A stretch of 64,000 nucleotides of DNA from Chryseobacterium oleae. GTDB taxonomy: Bacteria > Bacteroidota > Bacteroidia > Flavobacteriales > Weeksellaceae. The notes beneath the pieces were generated by a model, which saw only the letters and a list, made by a program, of their open reading frames with translations, made no database searches and was not told where the DNA came from. Below, piece after piece: positions 2,914 through 22,996 of this stretch. Location: contig NZ_FOVD01000007.1 of NCBI RefSeq assembly GCF_900115055.1, positions 186,001 through 250,000 of the forward strand, in the 5' to 3' direction. The position numbers and the translations under genes are program-made. Numbering within the stretch: position 1 is the stretch's first letter; each line of letters starts with the position of its first letter.

Positions 2914-3585
2914 TTAATGATTTAAGCTTTTAAAATAGGAATCATTCAGCTTCCAGACTAACTCCTGCGGGCCGCCATTCCAGTAATAGGTATTCCCTTC
3001 TTTTTTAACCTGATATAGTTTAAAGGTCTGCTGTACTGTAGTTTTCTTCTCTGATTTTGCAAAAGCTTTCGTTTTGTTTTTCAAATAGCTCTTCAAATCT
3101 TCTGCAGTCATTTTTTTGGCCTCTTCAAGTTTTAACGCAGAAACGTTTGCAGGAACAGGAAAACTGAGATCCACGCTAAGTTCTGTCACCCAACTGTTAT
3201 CTGCATATTCATTTTTGACTTCTTTTATATTTTTCACAACGTATCCGGTATTCTTTACATTGTTTAAAAGAGCCCTGAAATATTCTCGCGCTTCTGGCCT
3301 GCATCCGGCTGCCGTCTCTTTTGGAAGATGGGCAAGGAAACTTTCGGTAAGATTTTGAACCTCATCATTAAAAGATTTGTTCATGTCTATTGTATACGTA
3401 TTTTCTGCTCCGAGGAATGGTACAAGATATTCATTAAGCTGTTGAAGCGCACGTTCATCCTGTTTTACAAAAGTATTAAAATACATCCCGAATACGTGCT
3501 CCGGTTTCACAGCATCCATTTGTGCGGACAGATTCTGAATACACAACAGCAGCATCAGAAATACAATTCTCATCGTTCCTTTCAT
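2914..3585 (-). CDS. Secreted protein of unknown function, paralogue B
   Basis: This 223-residue secreted protein is the upstream partner of paralogue A and probably arose by tandem duplication. It has a signal peptide (start at MKGTMRIVFL, or at the second Met, four codons in) ending near LSAQ. It shares the MYFNTFV motif and the C-terminal YYWNGGPQELV motif with its neighbour. The mature part is rich in Lys and Glu and is predicted to be mostly helical with an alpha/beta C-terminus. The function is unknown; a small ligand-binding fold would fit its size, but this is a guess. Confidence 0.75.
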   Translation of the reverse strand: MKGTMRIVFLMLLLCIQNLSAQMDAVKPEHVFGMYFNTFVKQDERALQQLNEYLVPFLGAENTYTIDMNKSFNDEVQNLTESFLAHLPKETAAGCRPEAREYFRALLNNVKNTGYVVKNIKEVKNEYADNSWVTELSVDLSFPVPANVSALKLEEAKKMTAEDLKSYLKNKTKAFAKSEKKTTVQQTFKLYQVKKEGNTYYWNGGPQELVWKLNDSYFKSLNH

Positions 3586-17471: not shown

Positions 17472-18866
17472 ATGAATTACAGAATAGAAAAGGATACTAT
17501 GGGGGAGGTTCAGGTGCCTGCTGACAAGTTTTGGGGAGCACAGACTGAACGTTCAAGAAACAATTTTAAGATCGGACCTGAGGGTTCTATGCCTCACGAA
17601 ATCATTGAAGCTTTTGCATTTTTAAAGAAGGCAGCTGCTTATACCAATACGGATCTTGGTGTTCTTCCCGCAGAAAAAAGAGATATGATCGCTAAAGTAT
17701 GTGACGAAATCCTGGAAGGAAAACTTAACGACCAGTTTCCTCTGGTGATCTGGCAGACGGGTTCAGGGACACAGTCCAATATGAATATCAATGAAGTGGT
17801 TTCCAACAGAGCTCACGTAAATAATGGCGGAACTTTAGGCGATAAATCTGAAATTCACCCGAATGACGATGTGAACAAATCCCAGTCTTCCAATGATACT
17901 TACCCAACGGCAATGCATATTGCTGCTTACAAAAAAGTGGTTGAAGTAACGATTCCGGCTGTTGAAAAATTAAAAAATACAATTGCAGCAAAGGCGGAAG
18001 CATTTAAAGATATTGTAAAAATCGGGAGAACTCACCTTATGGATGCCACTCCCCTTACGCTTGGACAGGAATTTTCAGGCTACAAAGCTCAGCTTGAATA
18101 TGGTCTGAAAGCGTTGAAAAACACCCTTCCTCACCTTTCTGAACTTGCTTTGGGCGGAACTGCCGTAGGTACGGGACTAAACACCCCAAATGGTTATGAT
18201 GTAAAAGTTGCTGAATATATTGCGAAGTTTACCAATCACCCGTTTGTTACAGCTGAGAATAAATTTGAAGCTCTGGCTGCTCACGATGCTATTGTGGAAT
18301 CCCACGGTGCTTTAAAACAACTGGCTGTTTCTTTATTCAAGATAGCTCAGGATATCAGATTGCTGGCTTCAGGTCCACGTTCGGGAATCGGGGAAATTCA
18401 TATTCCTGAAAATGAGCCGGGATCTTCTATTATGCCCGGGAAAGTAAATCCTACGCAGAATGAAGCAATGACTATGGTTTGCGCTCAGGTTCTTGGAAAT
18501 GATACGACAATCTCTTTTGCAGGAACTCAGGGGAATTATGAGCTTAATGTGTTCAAACCTGTTATGGCGTACAACTTCCTTCAGTCTGCTCAGTTAATCG
18601 CGGATGCATGTATTTCATTCAATGATCACTGTGCGGAAGGTATTGAACCGAATCATGAGAGAATTAAAGAACTGGTAGACAAATCATTAATGCTTGTTAC
18701 CGCCTTAAATACCCACATAGGTTACGAAAATGCAGCGAAGATTGCAAAAACAGCCCACAAAAACGGAACGACTTTAAAAGAAGAAGCTGTAGGCCTTGGC
18801 TTTTTAACAGCTGAGCAGTTTGACGAATGGGTGAAGCCGGAAGATATGGTGGGAAGCCTTAAATAG
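17472..18866 (+). CDS. fumC: Class II fumarate hydratase
   Basis: This enzyme hydrates fumarate to L-malate without a metal cofactor. The ATG at 17472 ([28 protein letters not shown]) gives 464 residues, close to the usual 460-467; an earlier in-frame ATG would add 16 residues that do not belong to the family. The superfamily signature [17 protein letters not shown] is intact. [10 protein letters not shown] and the [21 protein letters not shown] region carry active-site residues. It is divergent from the class I fumarase gene and is followed by a terminator. Confidence 0.96.
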
Positions 18867-19041
18867 ATAAAGGTTTGGGAGATGGACGATGGAGGCTGGA
18901 AGATACTATTCGCCATTAATTTTTAAGAGATCCCTTACAATATATCAAGTGTGATTTAAGAATTAATAAAAATGCTTTGTAGTATGTTTTAGACCATAAC
19001 AACTTTAATTTCCCTTACATTTAAATAGATTGAACAATAAG

Positions 19042-19074
19042 AAAACCTCAGAAATTCTGGGGTTTTTATTTTTA
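19042..19074 (+). terminator. Terminator between fumC and the peptide genes
   Basis: AAACCTCAG and CTGGGGTTT form a stem (one G-U pair), followed by a T-rich tract. It separates fumC transcription from the three peptide genes. Confidence 0.75.
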
Positions 19075-19159
19075 GTAAAACACTGACGTACAATTTTTTA
19101 TAAAAACATATGCTATAATTTTATTTTTTCCTATATTAGTGATATACAAAACTTAATCT

Positions 19160-19354
19160 ATGAAAAATTTAAAAAAATTACACAGAGATCATTTAAGAGA
19201 AGTAATGGGAGGACATACATGCCCGAACAATCTCGTTCATGTAGAGTTTAACGGCTATCATGCATGCTGCCTGAATATGCCTCCTGAAGGAAATCCGTGC
19301 AAAGGAAAATTCTGCTTTATTCCTGAGGGAATGTGTTCCAGTGAACCTATGTAA
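19160..19354 (+). CDS. GG-leader six-cysteine peptide 1
   Basis: This 64-residue precursor has an 18-residue leader (MKNLKKLHRDHLREVMGG) ending in a double glycine, the kind cut by C39-peptidase ABC exporters. Small 'bacteriocin-like' proteins with this leader are common in Chryseobacterium. The 46-residue core has cysteines at 21, 36, 37, 47, 52 and 59, giving C-X14-CC-X9-C-X4-C-X6-C, enough for three disulfides or for thioether links. Conserved core motifs are NGYHxCC, MPPxGNPCKG and a C-terminal PM. It is the first of three tandem copies. No exporter, peptidase or modification enzyme lies next to it. The activity is unknown. Confidence 0.8.
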   Translation: MKNLKKLHRDHLREVMGGHTCPNNLVHVEFNGYHACCLNMPPEGNPCKGKFCFIPEGMCSSEPM

Positions 19355-19382
19355 GATAAAACGCTAATTAGACTATTTCCCT

Positions 19383-19577
19383 ATGAAAAATTTAAAAAAA
19401 CTAAACAGAAATCTCTTAAAAGAAGTTCTAGGAGGGCACACCTGTCCGGGTACTACGATTCATTTACAATATAACGGGTATCATGTCTGCTGCATCAGAA
19501 TGCCTCCCGGTGGTAATCCATGTAAAGGGACATTATGTCTTATTGAAGAAGGAACGTGTTCAGGAGATCCAATGTAA
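19383..19577 (+). CDS. GG-leader six-cysteine peptide 2
   Basis: This 64-residue precursor is a paralogue of peptide 1, with cysteines at exactly the same positions (21, 36, 37, 47, 52, 59) and the same leader end (KEVLGG). The core begins HTCPG and keeps NGYHVCC, MPPGGNPCKG and the terminal PM. Exposed positions between the cysteines vary, as expected for a diversifying family. It follows peptide 1 after 28 bp; that spacer is nearly the same as the one before peptide 3, which indicates serial duplication of a gene-plus-spacer unit. Confidence 0.8.
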   Translation: MKNLKKLNRNLLKEVLGGHTCPGTTIHLQYNGYHVCCIRMPPGGNPCKGTLCLIEEGTCSGDPM

Positions 19578-19605
19578 AATAAAACTTTAATTAAACTATT
19601 TTCCC

Positions 19606-19812
19606 ATGAAAAACCTGAAAAAATTCAACAGAGCCAGCCTGAAAGAAGTATTTGGAGGGGCTGTTGTTCCACGCTGTCCGCCGAACTGGTATCTTGTCCA
19701 ATATAACGGTTATTACGCATGCTGTAGCGTTCCTACAGACAATCCCTGCCAGGGAATGTGTATGGTGCATGTTGATATGTGTGCTACACCGATCGAGGAA
19801 GATCCTATTTAA
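19606..19812 (+). CDS. GG-leader six-cysteine peptide 3 (divergent)
   Basis: This 68-residue precursor is the most divergent of the trio. The leader is kept (MKNLKKFNRASLKEVFGG). The core starts AVVPRC and has cysteines at 24, 39, 40, 48, 52 and 59, so the order C-X14-CC-C-C-X6-C is retained while the middle loops shrink to X7 and X3. It keeps NGYYACC and NPCQG but ends in an acidic tail (EEDPI) instead of PM. A strong hairpin follows at 19826-19850. Confidence 0.78.
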   Translation: MKNLKKFNRASLKEVFGGAVVPRCPPNWYLVQYNGYYACCSVPTDNPCQGMCMVHVDMCATPIEEDPI

Positions 19813-19825
19813 AATAATTGATGGA

Positions 19826-19855
19826 AAGGCCGGAACTTGTTTCCGGCCTTTTTAT
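19826..19855. terminator. Bidirectional terminator between the peptide genes and the DyP peroxidase gene
   Basis: A perfect 10-bp GC-rich stem (AAGGCCGGAA / TTCCGGCCTT) with a short loop is followed on the plus strand by T-rich sequence. The two units converge here, so it probably ends both transcripts. Confidence 0.85.
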
Positions 19856-20791
19856 TTATCCTGAAAATTCATCCAGCATATTTCTGGTAGGAACAAAGAA
19901 AAGCGTTCCGGTAACTGCTGTACTGAAATCTAAAATTCTGTCGTAATTGCCCGGTGGATCTCCGATGAACATATTCGTCAGCATTTTCTTCGTTGTGCTG
20001 AATGTACTGGCATAAGCTATGAAATACGTTCCGAACTCATTGGAAGAAGGGTTTCCGAAAGGCATATTGTCTCTTACAATCTTAAGCTCTTCCCCGTTTT
20101 CCCCTTCAATATTAGCCAAAGCAATATGGGAATTGGATGGTTTTACAGCATCCGACATTTCTATATCATTTTCTTTTGACCTTCCGATCACTTTTTCCTG
20201 CTCTTCTGTGGACAGCCCTTTCCAGGCATCCATATTGTGAAGGTATTTCTGAACAAATAAGTAGCTGCCGCCCTTATACTGAAGATCTTCATCCCCGATT
20301 TTTGCAAAATAATCCCGGTCTTCTCCATGCGGATTTTCAGTTCCATCTACAAAGCCAAGAATAGAACGGGCATCCCAATATTTGAATCCATGGATTTCAA
20401 GAATACTTTCGGCAACGGAGCTCAAAAGTTTTGAGATCTCTATCGCCATATCGAAAATAAGACTTTTATTATCTGCTCTCAGATGAAAATGAAGATCTCC
20501 GGGCGTAGAAACGGCCGTATGTTTTACGCCTTTAATTTCTTCAAAACTGATCAGTTCTTTCGGCAACGGTGTCGGAAGTTCCAGTTTTTTCCAGGCATCA
20601 GCACCAATTCCCATCACGCAGCTTACTCTACTGTCCGGAAACCTGTTAAAAGCTGAATTATTAAGATTGAGGACCAAAGCACAAAGCTGCTGGAAAACAT
20701 CTTTCAGCTGCGGGCTGTTATTCAGTTTCCACACCATGAAAATAGTGTTGCTGTTAGGATAGTCTGTGACGTTTTGTGATTCTATACTCAT
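19856..20791 (-). CDS. Dye-decolourising (DyP-type) heme peroxidase
   Basis: This 311-residue heme peroxidase oxidises phenolic or other substrates with H2O2. The signature GFVDG with the catalytic Asp is at 146-150 (GFVDGTENP). The proximal heme ligand is probably His222 (NSHIALAN). The distal Arg lies in KIVRDNMPFG near 240. No signal peptide is visible, so it is cytoplasmic or packaged, for example in an encapsulin shell, but no encapsulin gene is nearby. The C-terminus lacks a clear cargo-loading tag. It is followed upstream by an ABC transporter pair transcribed in the same direction with a 15-bp gap, so it may be part of that operon. Confidence 0.93.
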   Translation of the reverse strand: MSIESQNVTDYPNSNTIFMVWKLNNSPQLKDVFQQLCALVLNLNNSAFNRFPDSRVSCVMGIGADAWKKLELPTPLPKELISFEEIKGVKHTAVSTPGDLHFHLRADNKSLIFDMAIEISKLLSSVAESILEIHGFKYWDARSILGFVDGTENPHGEDRDYFAKIGDEDLQYKGGSYLFVQKYLHNMDAWKGLSTEEQEKVIGRSKENDIEMSDAVKPSNSHIALANIEGENGEELKIVRDNMPFGNPSSNEFGTYFIAYASTFSTTKKMLTNMFIGDPPGNYDRILDFSTAVTGTLFFVPTRNMLDEFSG

Positions 20792-20806: not shown

Positions 20807-21526
20807 TTAAACTTCTGCCGGCGTAGACACCTGATCTGCAAAATACTGTTCAAGATCCTTCAATGTTTCCGGATTGGTCTTGATGTCTTTCACAAGCTGT
20901 CCTTTATTCACAACAACAATTCTGTTACAGACTTCTGTCGTATGGGAAAGGTCATGGCTAGAGATCAGAAAAGTAACCCCATCCTGCTTTGAAAGTTCTT
21001 TAATTAAGTTTTTAAGTTTAATCTGGGTTGATGGATCCAGATTCGCAAAAGGTTCATCTAAGATAATGATTTCCGGATTTCCGATGACAGCTCCTATGAT
21101 TCCTACCTTTTTCTGGTTTCCTTTTGATAAATCACGGACATATTTTCCAGAATTAAGAATTTCTCCATTGAAAAAATCATGGAAAGGTTTTAAAAATTCG
21201 TCTACAGAAGCTTTATTCTGCCCTCTCAGTTCTCCGATGAAATAGAAATATTCTTCAGGCGTCAGATAGCCGATCAGGAAAGTATCATCTACAAAAGCAG
21301 ACACTTTGTTTTTCCAGGCTTCAGATTCATTGACTTTAATATCCTCGATGCTTACAAAACCTGTCGTAGGCTGGATCAGATCAAGCATAAGACTAAAAAG
21401 CGTCGTTTTCCCGGCTCCATTATTTCCTACCAGCCCAAAAGTTTCACCGTTAGGAATTTCAAGATGCTCAATATTAAGAACTGTAGCAGTTCCGTAGGTC
21501 TTGGATAAGTTATTGATGGTAATCAT
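20807..21526 (-). CDS. ABC transporter ATP-binding protein
   Basis: This 239-residue ATPase subunit belongs to an ABC-2-like exporter. Walker A GNNGAGKT is at 34-41. The signature is LSKGNQKKVGI (LSKGN in place of LSGGQ, common in drug and bacteriocin-immunity exporters). Walker B is IIILDEPFANLDP, with the switch His in ISSHD. The gene starts 3 bp after the stop of the permease gene, so the two are translationally linked. Substrate unknown. Confidence 0.92.
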   Translation of the reverse strand: MITINNLSKTYGTATVLNIEHLEIPNGETFGLVGNNGAGKTTLFSLMLDLIQPTTGFVSIEDIKVNESEAWKNKVSAFVDDTFLIGYLTPEEYFYFIGELRGQNKASVDEFLKPFHDFFNGEILNSGKYVRDLSKGNQKKVGIIGAVIGNPEIIILDEPFANLDPSTQIKLKNLIKELSKQDGVTFLISSHDLSHTTEVCNRIVVVNKGQLVKDIKTNPETLKDLEQYFADQVSTPAEV

Positions 21527-21529
21527 AAT

Positions 21530-22996
21530 TTAGTCTTTGTTTTTAAATGCGTCCAGCGTACTGTATTTTTCGCGTTTGTATTGTTTAACGATGATATCGA
21601 ATATTCTTTCTCTCAGCATAAATCCTACAAGTCCCAAAATAGCAATGCTTACAACACCTGCCGTGATTCCAAAGAAGTATTTTGACAGAGCAAAAACGCC
21701 CATAGGAAGTAACATTTTCGGAATCAGAAGGAGCATAGATTTCAGATTAAAACTGTTTTTCTGTCCTATCCTTTTTTCTTTTGAATTAAGATCGATCTGC
21801 GTTTTATTATACGCACCAGACCATAGGGTAAGCTGGGAATTCACCCCGATATTATAAATCCCTGCTGCAAAAAATGTGATATAAAGCTCCCAACCAAAAT
21901 AGGCGTAAAATAAGGCAATGATAATTGAAGCTGCTGTCATGATGTTGATCAGCCACCATTTTGCTTTGAGATATTCTTTGTAAGGAACATTCAGAGTCAT
22001 CATTAAGGGGTAATAAGAACTGTCGAACGAAGGAACTCTCTGCCCGAAAAGAAACTGAAAACCTCCGGTCACAAACAGCCCCATAAACATCATCATGGCC
22101 GGTGTTTTGTAAATTGTAGAAGAGAACATCAGCAATCCGTAGAAAAGGAAGAAAAAACTTCCGATCAGAATTCCTTTGGTGACTTTATTCCTTCTCAGCA
22201 TTTTGATATCGTTGTTGATAAATGTTCCGATGACACCGTATTTATTTAGGAAGGCAATATTTTCAGTTTTCCCAAACTGCTTCTTCGCTTCGAGTCCCTG
22301 ATCCAGATAGAATTCTTTACGAACGTAGCTGAAACAGATTCGCCATAAGCCAAAGAACAGAACAATTGGAATTATAATCCAGTAAGGAGTCTGGTAGAAA
22401 CTATAAATAAATTTTTCCGAGTAAGAAAGTACGGGTACAATATTGTAATAGCCAAGCGCACCCACCCCGGCAAATACACAGCCTATGATGATCGCAATCG
22501 TTTCTTTATCATTGAACTGGATATTGATAAAATTATTCAGATAAAATAAAAAGGAAATTCCGATGAACCAGGTTAAAATACCTACAATACTGTATCCATT
22601 GAACATTGCAATGATCGAAAATGTAATGAAGAACAGGGAATTCAGCCAGCTCAATGCGGAAAGAAAGGTTTTCACAAGCATATAATTGACCAGCGTATTT
22701 TTGGGAATATTCTGGGTCAGGAAAGGCTTGATATTCTGGGTGGACATTTCCTGCCAGATATACTTGAAAATCAAATCTGCAGCCCATGCTATTACTAAAA
22801 ATTTTGAAACAACTTTTAAAGGATCCTGATGCATTTCGTCCCGTACGTAGAAGAACACTGCAAAAGCGCCTCCTGCCAGACAGGCCATAAAATAAAGGAT
22901 TCCTATAAAACGAAGGATTTTCATGGCCAGATTCACGCCTACAGAAGTACCGCGGAAAAAGCTCTTGATTTCCAGTCTGAGGAACTTTAGAAACAT
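21530..22996 (-). CDS. DUF5687-family ABC transporter permease
   Basis: This 488-residue integral membrane protein has around 12 hydrophobic segments and matches the DUF5687 permeases that pair with ABC ATPases in Bacteroidota. It begins MFLKFLRLEIKSFFRGTSVG and has an amphipathic N-terminus typical of ABC-2 permeases. It is the first gene of a unit permease-ATPase, possibly extended by the DyP peroxidase gene. Whether the pair exports the nearby six-cysteine peptides is open: there is no C39 peptidase domain, and the peptides are on the opposite strand. Confidence 0.85.
   Translation of the reverse strand: MFLKFLRLEIKSFFRGTSVGVNLAMKILRFIGILYFMACLAGGAFAVFFYVRDEMHQDPLKVVSKFLVIAWAADLIFKYIWQEMSTQNIKPFLTQNIPKNTLVNYMLVKTFLSALSWLNSLFFITFSIIAMFNGYSIVGILTWFIGISFLFYLNNFINIQFNDKETIAIIIGCVFAGVGALGYYNIVPVLSYSEKFIYSFYQTPYWIIIPIVLFFGLWRICFSYVRKEFYLDQGLEAKKQFGKTENIAFLNKYGVIGTFINNDIKMLRRNKVTKGILIGSFFFLFYGLLMFSSTIYKTPAMMMFMGLFVTGGFQFLFGQRVPSFDSSYYPLMMTLNVPYKEYLKAKWWLINIMTAASIIIALFYAYFGWELYITFFAAGIYNIGVNSQLTLWSGAYNKTQIDLNSKEKRIGQKNSFNLKSMLLLIPKMLLPMGVFALSKYFFGITAGVVSIAILGLVGFMLRERIFDIIVKQYKREKYSTLDAFKNKD

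Follow-up and report, generated by a model that had tools for sequence, protein, structure and literature searches.

Within the 64,000-nucleotide stretch of Chryseobacterium oleae DNA analysed here (the window; part of contig C15), three short genes in tandem encode peptides with a double-glycine (GG) leader and a six-cysteine core. The question raised by this locus is by which machinery such peptides could be cut, exported and folded, with no exporter encoded beside them. An earlier note on the window had proposed processing by an exporter encoded elsewhere, and had offered both disulfides and thioether links for the cores.

Peptide genes of the window and their relatives

The open reading frames, together with the NCBI leader model NF047798 (leader_Chryseo, 'bacteriocin-like protein'), confirmed the three tandem genes with an 18-residue MKNLKK..GG leader; that the leader belongs to this named family had been missed. 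Features were assigned on the forward strand as follows.

19041..19067, + strand: terminator-like hairpin in the gap between fumC and the peptide genes (hairpin scan; conserved across aligned loci)
19132..19145, + strand: TATATTAGTGATAT element, candidate promoter or regulator site, 14 bases 5' of the first start codon
19160..19354, + strand: GG-leader six-cysteine peptide 1 (type A, starting GG/HTCP; ORF, 64 aa)
19160..19213, + strand: double-glycine leader of peptide 1, 18 residues (NF047798 positions 1-18)
19355..19382, + strand: spacer 1, 28 bp (22/28 positions equal to spacer 2)
19383..19577, + strand: GG-leader six-cysteine peptide 2 (type A; ORF, 64 aa)
19383-19436, + strand: leader of peptide 2, 18 residues (NF047798 positions 1-18)
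19578..19605, + strand: spacer 2, 28 bp (22/28 positions equal to spacer 1)
19606..19812, + strand: GG-leader six-cysteine peptide 3 (type B, acidic tail; ORF, 68 aa)
19606-19659, + strand: leader of peptide 3, 18 residues (NF047798 positions 1-18)
19825..19856, + strand: terminator-like inverted repeat 3' of peptide 3, AAAGGCCGGAA..TTCCGGCCTTTTT (read from the sequence; absent from the terminator-scan output)

In all three peptides the GG stands directly before the core. The cysteines are spaced C-X14-CC-X9-C-X4-C-X6-C in peptides 1 and 2 and C-X14-CC-X7-C-X3-C-X6-C in peptide 3, whose C-terminus is IEEDPI; the common scaffold, the equal positions in the first two copies and the shorter loops and acidic tail of the third were thus as first described. 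NF047798 scores were 21.6, 23.9 and 24.4 bits for peptides 1, 2 and 3, respectively, against a cut-off of 23.5 bits, so that peptide 1 falls slightly under it and peptides 2 and 3 pass. The model shares the 18 leader positions with the window peptides and is silent on core, exporter and disulfides. Cleavage after GG would most likely yield miniproteins of 46-50 residues, for which the calculated monoisotopic masses with three disulfides are 5075.101, 4897.113 and 5585.358 (peptides 1, 2 and 3; +6.05 each when reduced). Cores 1 and 3 contain only 3 Ser+Thr per 6 Cys, core 2 contains 6, and the type A cores carry an N-terminal His and three His in total.

The peptides were compared with several collections. 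Pfam gave no match, six-cysteine core included; NCBIfam gave, besides NF047798, only the CCPGW family, far under its cut-off; PHROGs gave one chance match (E 0.12); a sequence search of solved structures with peptide 1 gave chance matches only (best E 1.9); and no plasmid record was found to encode a relative of peptide 1. Structure prediction, which the earlier note had proposed for all three cores, was carried out for peptide 1 (AlphaFold, 26-row alignment) and gave a model of moderate quality only (pLDDT 69, about 80 in the core); Foldseek with this model returned no solved relative (best E 4.0).

The window neighbours, by Pfam, are two fumarases (one being fumC), a Dyp peroxidase, an ABC ATPase, a DUF5687 membrane protein and an AraC-type regulator, with no peptide-modifying enzyme among them (no LanB/LanC/LanM, no radical-SAM maturase). 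Only 293 bases separate the peptide set from fumC, and 43 bases from the oppositely oriented Dyp peroxidase gene, so that an adjacent immunity gene has no room at the window locus. Because a hairpin parts the peptide genes from fumC and TATATTAGTGATAT precedes the first start codon, the genes probably form their own transcription unit, a small operon; TATATTAGTGATAT is near-invariant before the first peptide in 10 aligned loci (the window and nine others). TTAGTGA was also seen 5' of four other C. oleae GG-peptide genes (C16:126216, C7:638812, C4:2726, C14:238014) and is possibly a promoter or regulator site common to several of them. A Bacteroidetes-type -7 promoter motif occurred 5' of 17 of the 69 C. 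oleae GG peptides, with 10.5 expected; this enrichment was set aside as unconvincing, as shuffles reached 20. All Rfam matches in positions 18800-20000 of the window were below the gathering score. The ABC pair at 20807-22996, already noted to lack a peptidase domain and to lie on the other strand, was rejected as exporter on both grounds (no C39 domain, opposite strand); it was also absent beside peptide relatives in five loci (L262-L265, L270).

A profile of the three peptides was run across 320 genomes of the family, as had been suggested, and 62 of them held relatives at E ≤ 3.8e-8, most matching over their whole length; at E ≤ 1e-3 matches were obtained in 165 genomes, many through the leader alone. 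Since relatives occur in 62/320 genomes and synonymous substitutions greatly outweigh non-synonymous ones, the window ORFs are not regarded as chance. Distinct peptide sets stood beside fumC, a Dyp peroxidase or the ABC pair in 35 of the 46 fetched; of the remaining 11, six come from loci of ~3.2 kb, too short to tell neighbours. Two loci (L111, L113) proved to be accidents of the pattern, not core-family members, and were taken out of the initial 48 sets.

Two types recur, A (GG/HTCP, NGYHACC) and B (CP..YNGYYACC, acidic tail), arranged A, A, B in the window and as A plus B or a single type at other loci. An alignment of 26 members shows no variation in the six cysteines, in NGY and NPC or in the GG of the leader; NPC and NGY vary in more distant relatives, and the His of type A is not conserved in type B. 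With only pairs below saturation counted, median dN/dS between type A orthologues was 0.16 in the leader (198 of 325 pairs) and 0.22 in the core (93 of 325); for type B it was 0.15 in the leader (83 of 91 pairs) and 0.09 in the core (80 of 91). Because of these values the orthologues are judged to be conserved under purifying selection, not diversifying. The earlier description of a diversifying family is therefore unsupported for orthologues; copies within one tandem do differ from each other, the second and third sharing 64% and 51% identity with peptide 1. Between ORFs 1 and 2, 142 of the 195 bases are equal. We infer that the three-gene set arose via tandem duplication. The two spacers are 28 bp long, as had been stated; 'nearly identical' was somewhat strong for 22 matching positions of 28.

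A decayed type B copy was observed in C. carnipullorum (L115:6001-6192, L271:4489-4680), its core out of register after the first cysteine. Stops reported inside window-peptide relatives of two other genomes (G106, G216) are natural ends and no sign of decay.

Leader family, C39 exporters and the VKOR-thioredoxin fusion

In the C. oleae genome NF047798 gave 69 matches at E ≤ 1, 45 of them over cut-off, spread over nine contigs and with cores very different from one another. After removal of one identical duplicate, 68 distinct peptides remained, with four cysteines in 20, six in 42, eight in 5 and five in one, i.e., an even non-zero count in 67/68. At loci of other genomes 142 of 145 distinct cores were even (2, 4 or 6 Cys; 63/66 when clustered), the exceptions being two odd cores (5 and 7 Cys) and one stunted core without Cys (L240). 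Peptides were chosen for this count by leader only, and the C. oleae leaders hold zero cysteines, so the selection cannot cause the parity. A looser leader pattern also yields odd counts, partly from frames of other genes; one such peptide with five Cys (L229) has another leader type. The five-Cys peptide belongs to a family seen in two genomes (C15:282777-282830 in C. oleae and L232:13503-13667), and the seven-Cys leader peptide lies at L226:4701-4907 (G279).

Paired cysteines would give such even counts, although any periplasmic oxidase could do the pairing. Disulfides are likely in view of both the parity and the VKOR-thioredoxin oxidase in the exporter cassette described below, and the earlier suggestion of disulfide-rich peptides gains support on both counts. 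In PMC12421883, even Cys counts of exported proteins are used as a disulfide sign.

A genome search for C39 exporters, as the earlier note had proposed, returned three C39 peptidase-ABC proteins, on contigs C14, C8 and C7, two of them standing with Lan or radical-SAM genes; neither the window nor the rest of contig C15 yielded a C39 domain, in agreement with the absence of a nearby exporter. The C7 protein stands with a split LanB and a LanC (locus L118:9844-17495), and a candidate precursor whose leader ends LQGG (L118:18198-18392) lies ~700 bases past LanC on the other strand. The C8 protein stands with a radical-SAM/SPASM protein (locus L117:417-7645), whose scores against the NCBIfam maturase equivalogs listed fall well short of their cut-offs; its candidate precursor lies just before, with a leader ending LLKGG. 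The C8 locus also has an outer-membrane beta-barrel gene, and its candidate precursor (2945-3124) contains CKC. Neither candidate precursor carries the leader_Chryseo leader. The C14 cassette (L116) comprises a C39-ABC protein, a HlyD-type adaptor (PF13437 in L116:6735-8033), a VKOR-thioredoxin protein and two embedded leader_Chryseo peptides with six Cys each. Because a separate candidate precursor with another leader stands at each of the C7 and C8 exporters, the C14 exporter is most likely the one that would serve the window peptides, and the claim of an exporter encoded elsewhere thereby acquires a named candidate, unlinked to the window (C14 versus C15).

Cassettes of this kind recur. In 39 further loci, read as the surroundings of fusions or leader matches in other genomes, fusion, C39-ABC and HlyD were all present in 33; the six remaining loci lacked one or more cassette genes in the stretch read. 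At least one peptide passing the leader model was encoded in 25 of the 33 complete cassettes. Of the other eight, four contain GG peptides with different leaders (L216, L227-L229), and in four (L223, L224, L230, L231) no leader-type or GG peptide was seen. A genome of another genus (G216) has a match to the window-peptide profile (E 3.8e-8) between VKOR fusion and HlyD (L216:6137-6334). Its core, C-X8-CC-X9-C-X4-C-X6-C, differs from the window scaffold in its shorter first loop, and its leader, somewhat different in kind, does not pass the leader model. By its cysteine pattern, this one case places the window scaffold inside an exporter cassette.

The VKOR-thioredoxin protein of the C14 cassette has 502 residues. 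Besides its VKOR and thioredoxin domains, it has an N-terminal stretch of 112 residues that resembles the C39 family minus the segment with the catalytic cysteine. Alignment of the fusion N-terminus with the C39 domain of the exporters by hhalign gave a probability of 90 and an E-value of 1.5e-6. PF03412 matched in 17 of 25 fusion members, weakly in C. oleae (15.3 bits; cut-off 22). Among distant relatives, 10 of the 17 loci (L278-L294) were tested, with PF03412 over cut-off in four (38.7-46.9 bits), below it in five and absent in one; the four strong matches begin at profile position 16-23, the catalytic Cys being position 13. The C39-like stretch is cysteine-free, save for one Cys in two distant members, and the CxxC motifs of the VKOR and thioredoxin domains are retained. 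We infer that the N-terminus is a dead, leader-binding C39-like domain on a disulfide oxidase. A sequence search of solved structures with the C39-like domain gave no match, and an AlphaFold model of a fusion relative (three-row alignment, pLDDT 44) was left unused. The cassette VKOR domain is the only one found in the C. oleae genome, and none of the 11 genus genomes without the fusion had a VKOR domain at E ≤ 0.01, which together suggest that it is not the housekeeping oxidase of the genus.

Across 320 genomes, leader family (E ≤ 1e-3) and fusion (E ≤ 1e-10) occurred together in 172, the leader alone in 4, the fusion alone in 9 and neither in 135. Within the genus Chryseobacterium (173 genomes) the respective counts were 159, 1, 3 and 10, and outside it 13, 3, 6 and 125 (Fisher p = 4e-73 overall, 6e-13 within and 1e-11 outside the genus); some of the fusions counted as present are fragments (G275, G303) or split (G258). 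Three leader-only genomes (G006, G009, G256) have one weak leader match each; the fourth (G083) has four leader matches with neither fusion nor C39, which speaks against a hub that serves the leader. Of the fusion-only genus genomes, one (G151) does carry a window-type peptide, and in two (G102, G044) no leader match and no window-type peptide were seen. A C39 domain was present in 159 of 160 leader-bearing and in 10 of 13 leaderless genus genomes; by these counts the fusion tracks the leader, and C39 alone does not. The fusion is present in every one of the 62 genomes with window-type peptides, and in 57 of 57 within the genus, where p is 0.01 as most genus genomes have the fusion anyway. On a single-gene tree, rough and limited to 30 of the 173 genus genomes chosen to include every exception, no fewer than 7 changes were counted for the fusion and no fewer than 8 for the leader family, with six places common by eye; because of these several separate losses, relatedness alone does not appear to make the co-occurrence.

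Proposed pathway, alternatives and related systems

From the sequence evidence we consider it probable that the window genes encode three-disulfide miniproteins addressed by their leader and cut and exported in trans by the distant C39-ABC/HlyD/VKOR-fusion hub. This reading builds on what is observed, namely the peptides, their common leader, the cysteine parity, the cassette anatomy with its embedded peptides and the co-occurrence; export, cleavage, oxidation and tethering would proceed as follows. The 18-residue leader would be an address common to dozens of scattered precursors and be read in trans by the one cassette on another contig. The active C39 peptidase-ABC exporter would cut after GG, and the core would be moved out with the HlyD-type adaptor and a putative outer-membrane channel, its six cysteines being paired by the VKOR-thioredoxin protein as it emerges. 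The dead C39-like domain would tether leader, precursor or exporter to the oxidase; with the leader read on the cytoplasmic face and oxidation taking place outside the inner membrane, this tether may couple the steps across the membrane.

For the mature peptides, microcin-like antagonism is ranked first among the possible roles, at somewhat less than an even chance, and signalling second, as a rather unlikely one. The purifying selection and the stable locus disfavour a rapidly evolving toxin with a dedicated immunity gene, whereas an arsenal or signal set is favoured by the many different cores in one genome.

Class II microcins (CvaB/CvaA-type export) are encoded together with their exporter and an immunity gene. 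The window peptides could be ordinary bacteriocins of this type, exported by C39-ABC/HlyD and oxidised by general oxidases, with the VKOR fusion a mere neighbour. A GG leader combined with C39-ABC and a HlyD-type adaptor is known equipment for microcin export in Gram-negatives, and NCBI names the leader family bacteriocin-like. We regard this as unlikely, since it is the fusion and not C39 that tracks the leader, no second VKOR was found in C. oleae, the gaps at the window locus leave no room for an immunity gene, and the orthologues are under purifying selection. Unlike microcin genes, the dozens of precursor genes here are scattered and apparently served in trans, in association with a VKOR oxidase. 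A role as metal-binding or redox (thiol) peptides, not stabilised by disulfides, would suit six Cys in about 46 residues and the three His of type A, the N-terminal one included. It is quite improbable in view of the near-perfect parity over many different cores, the associated disulfide oxidase and the missing conservation of His in type B. Slightly less probable still are enzymatic crosslinks (lanthionine or radical-SAM thioether) installed by enzymes elsewhere in the genome. The C7 and C8 loci would offer such enzymes with a C39 exporter, but both have their own candidate precursors with different leaders, the cores are mostly poor in Ser+Thr, a thioether partner needs no even Cys number, and the window neighbours include no modifying enzyme; the thioether part of the earlier proposal is thus left unsupported. 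That the genes are relics, unexported precursors in decaying tandem copies, is highly improbable, as apart from the out-of-frame C. carnipullorum copy low dN/dS applies to leader and core alike and the six cysteines are invariant.

Several parts of the proposed disulfide pathway are known: the GG leader, export by C39 proteins with HlyD, bacteriocin clusters that include thiol oxidoreductases, and one system serving many precursors. The sublancin cluster encodes SunT with BdbA/BdbB, and pediocin has a thiol-disulfide accessory protein. As here, a C39 exporter is encoded with thiol-disulfide oxidoreductases, there for one disulfide-containing bacteriocin; unlike here, one precursor per cluster is served, the oxidoreductases are DsbB/DsbA-type proteins, and the oxidase has no C39-like domain. 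In the prochlorosins ProcM acts in trans on many scattered precursors with a common leader, which is the arrangement proposed here, except that ProcM forms lanthionines whereas disulfides would be formed by the cassette. VKOR-C39 fusions may already have been catalogued. In the literature searched, which leaves most subscription papers outside, no paper was found that joins VKOR with C39 or double-glycine peptides, none that treats a VKOR-thioredoxin pair in Bacteroidetes, and none that describes a scattered library served by an oxidase bearing a C39-like domain. The mycobacterial VKOR-DsbA pathway, as described in PMC12421883, likewise pairs a VKOR disulfide oxidase with a thioredoxin-fold partner and serves essential proteins, whereas the cassette VKOR is fused to a C39-like domain and absent from the leaderless relatives tested. 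On leaders and precursor peptides of Chryseobacterium, the literature found deals with graspetides and other peptides (PMC8939145 among it).

If the proposed pathway is right, an annotation as 'bacteriocin-like', present in 160 of 173 genus genomes and often multicopy, would become a testable pathway of one exporter, one oxidase and dozens of cystine miniproteins, i.e., a natural system by which a Gram-negative folds disulfide-rich peptides oxidatively and exports them under the address of a leader; it would also supply targets for mass spectrometry.

DUF805b RNA and other features of the cassettes

The Rfam family DUF805b (RF02914), an orphan cis-regulatory RNA, was found ~20 bases 5' of seven leader-type GG-peptide genes of C. 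oleae, i.e., both peptides of the C14 cassette and five more, one match being slightly below the gathering score. Matches at the cassette were as follows.

L116:8295-8327, - strand: DUF805b RNA (Rfam)
L116:10927-10961, - strand: DUF805b RNA (Rfam)

The C. oleae genome holds 15 matches at E ≤ 1.5e-5, 10 of them over the gathering score, and DUF805b also precedes seven other genes; none was found at the window operon (Rfam, positions 18800-20000). A scan of 18 other cassettes gave 17 matches that exceed the gathering score; they are spread over 13 of the cassettes, and each lies, by position, just before a GG peptide. DUF805b was not mentioned in the literature searched, and the GG-peptide genes are a possible context for this orphan RNA. 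The candidate lanthipeptide precursor on C7 has a DUF805b match upstream that is below the gathering score.

A wider reading is put forward tentatively, as somewhat more doubtful than not: one leader would be read by active and dead C39-fold domains, which would couple cleavage, export and disulfide folding, with part of the library and the lanthipeptide precursor under DUF805b. If true, the system would parallel, with disulfide chemistry, the one-enzyme-many-substrates systems known for RiPPs.

In one genome (G279) a stretch beside the VKOR fusion (L226:7333-7536) matches only the first 68 residues of C39-ABC, and a nearly complete C39-ABC copy follows ~4 kb on (L226:11700-13909), with a frame change near residue 594. 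Of the 18 cassettes scanned, 11 (L240-L247, L249, L252, L253) have a tRNA gene on the opposite strand at most ~2 kb past HlyD.
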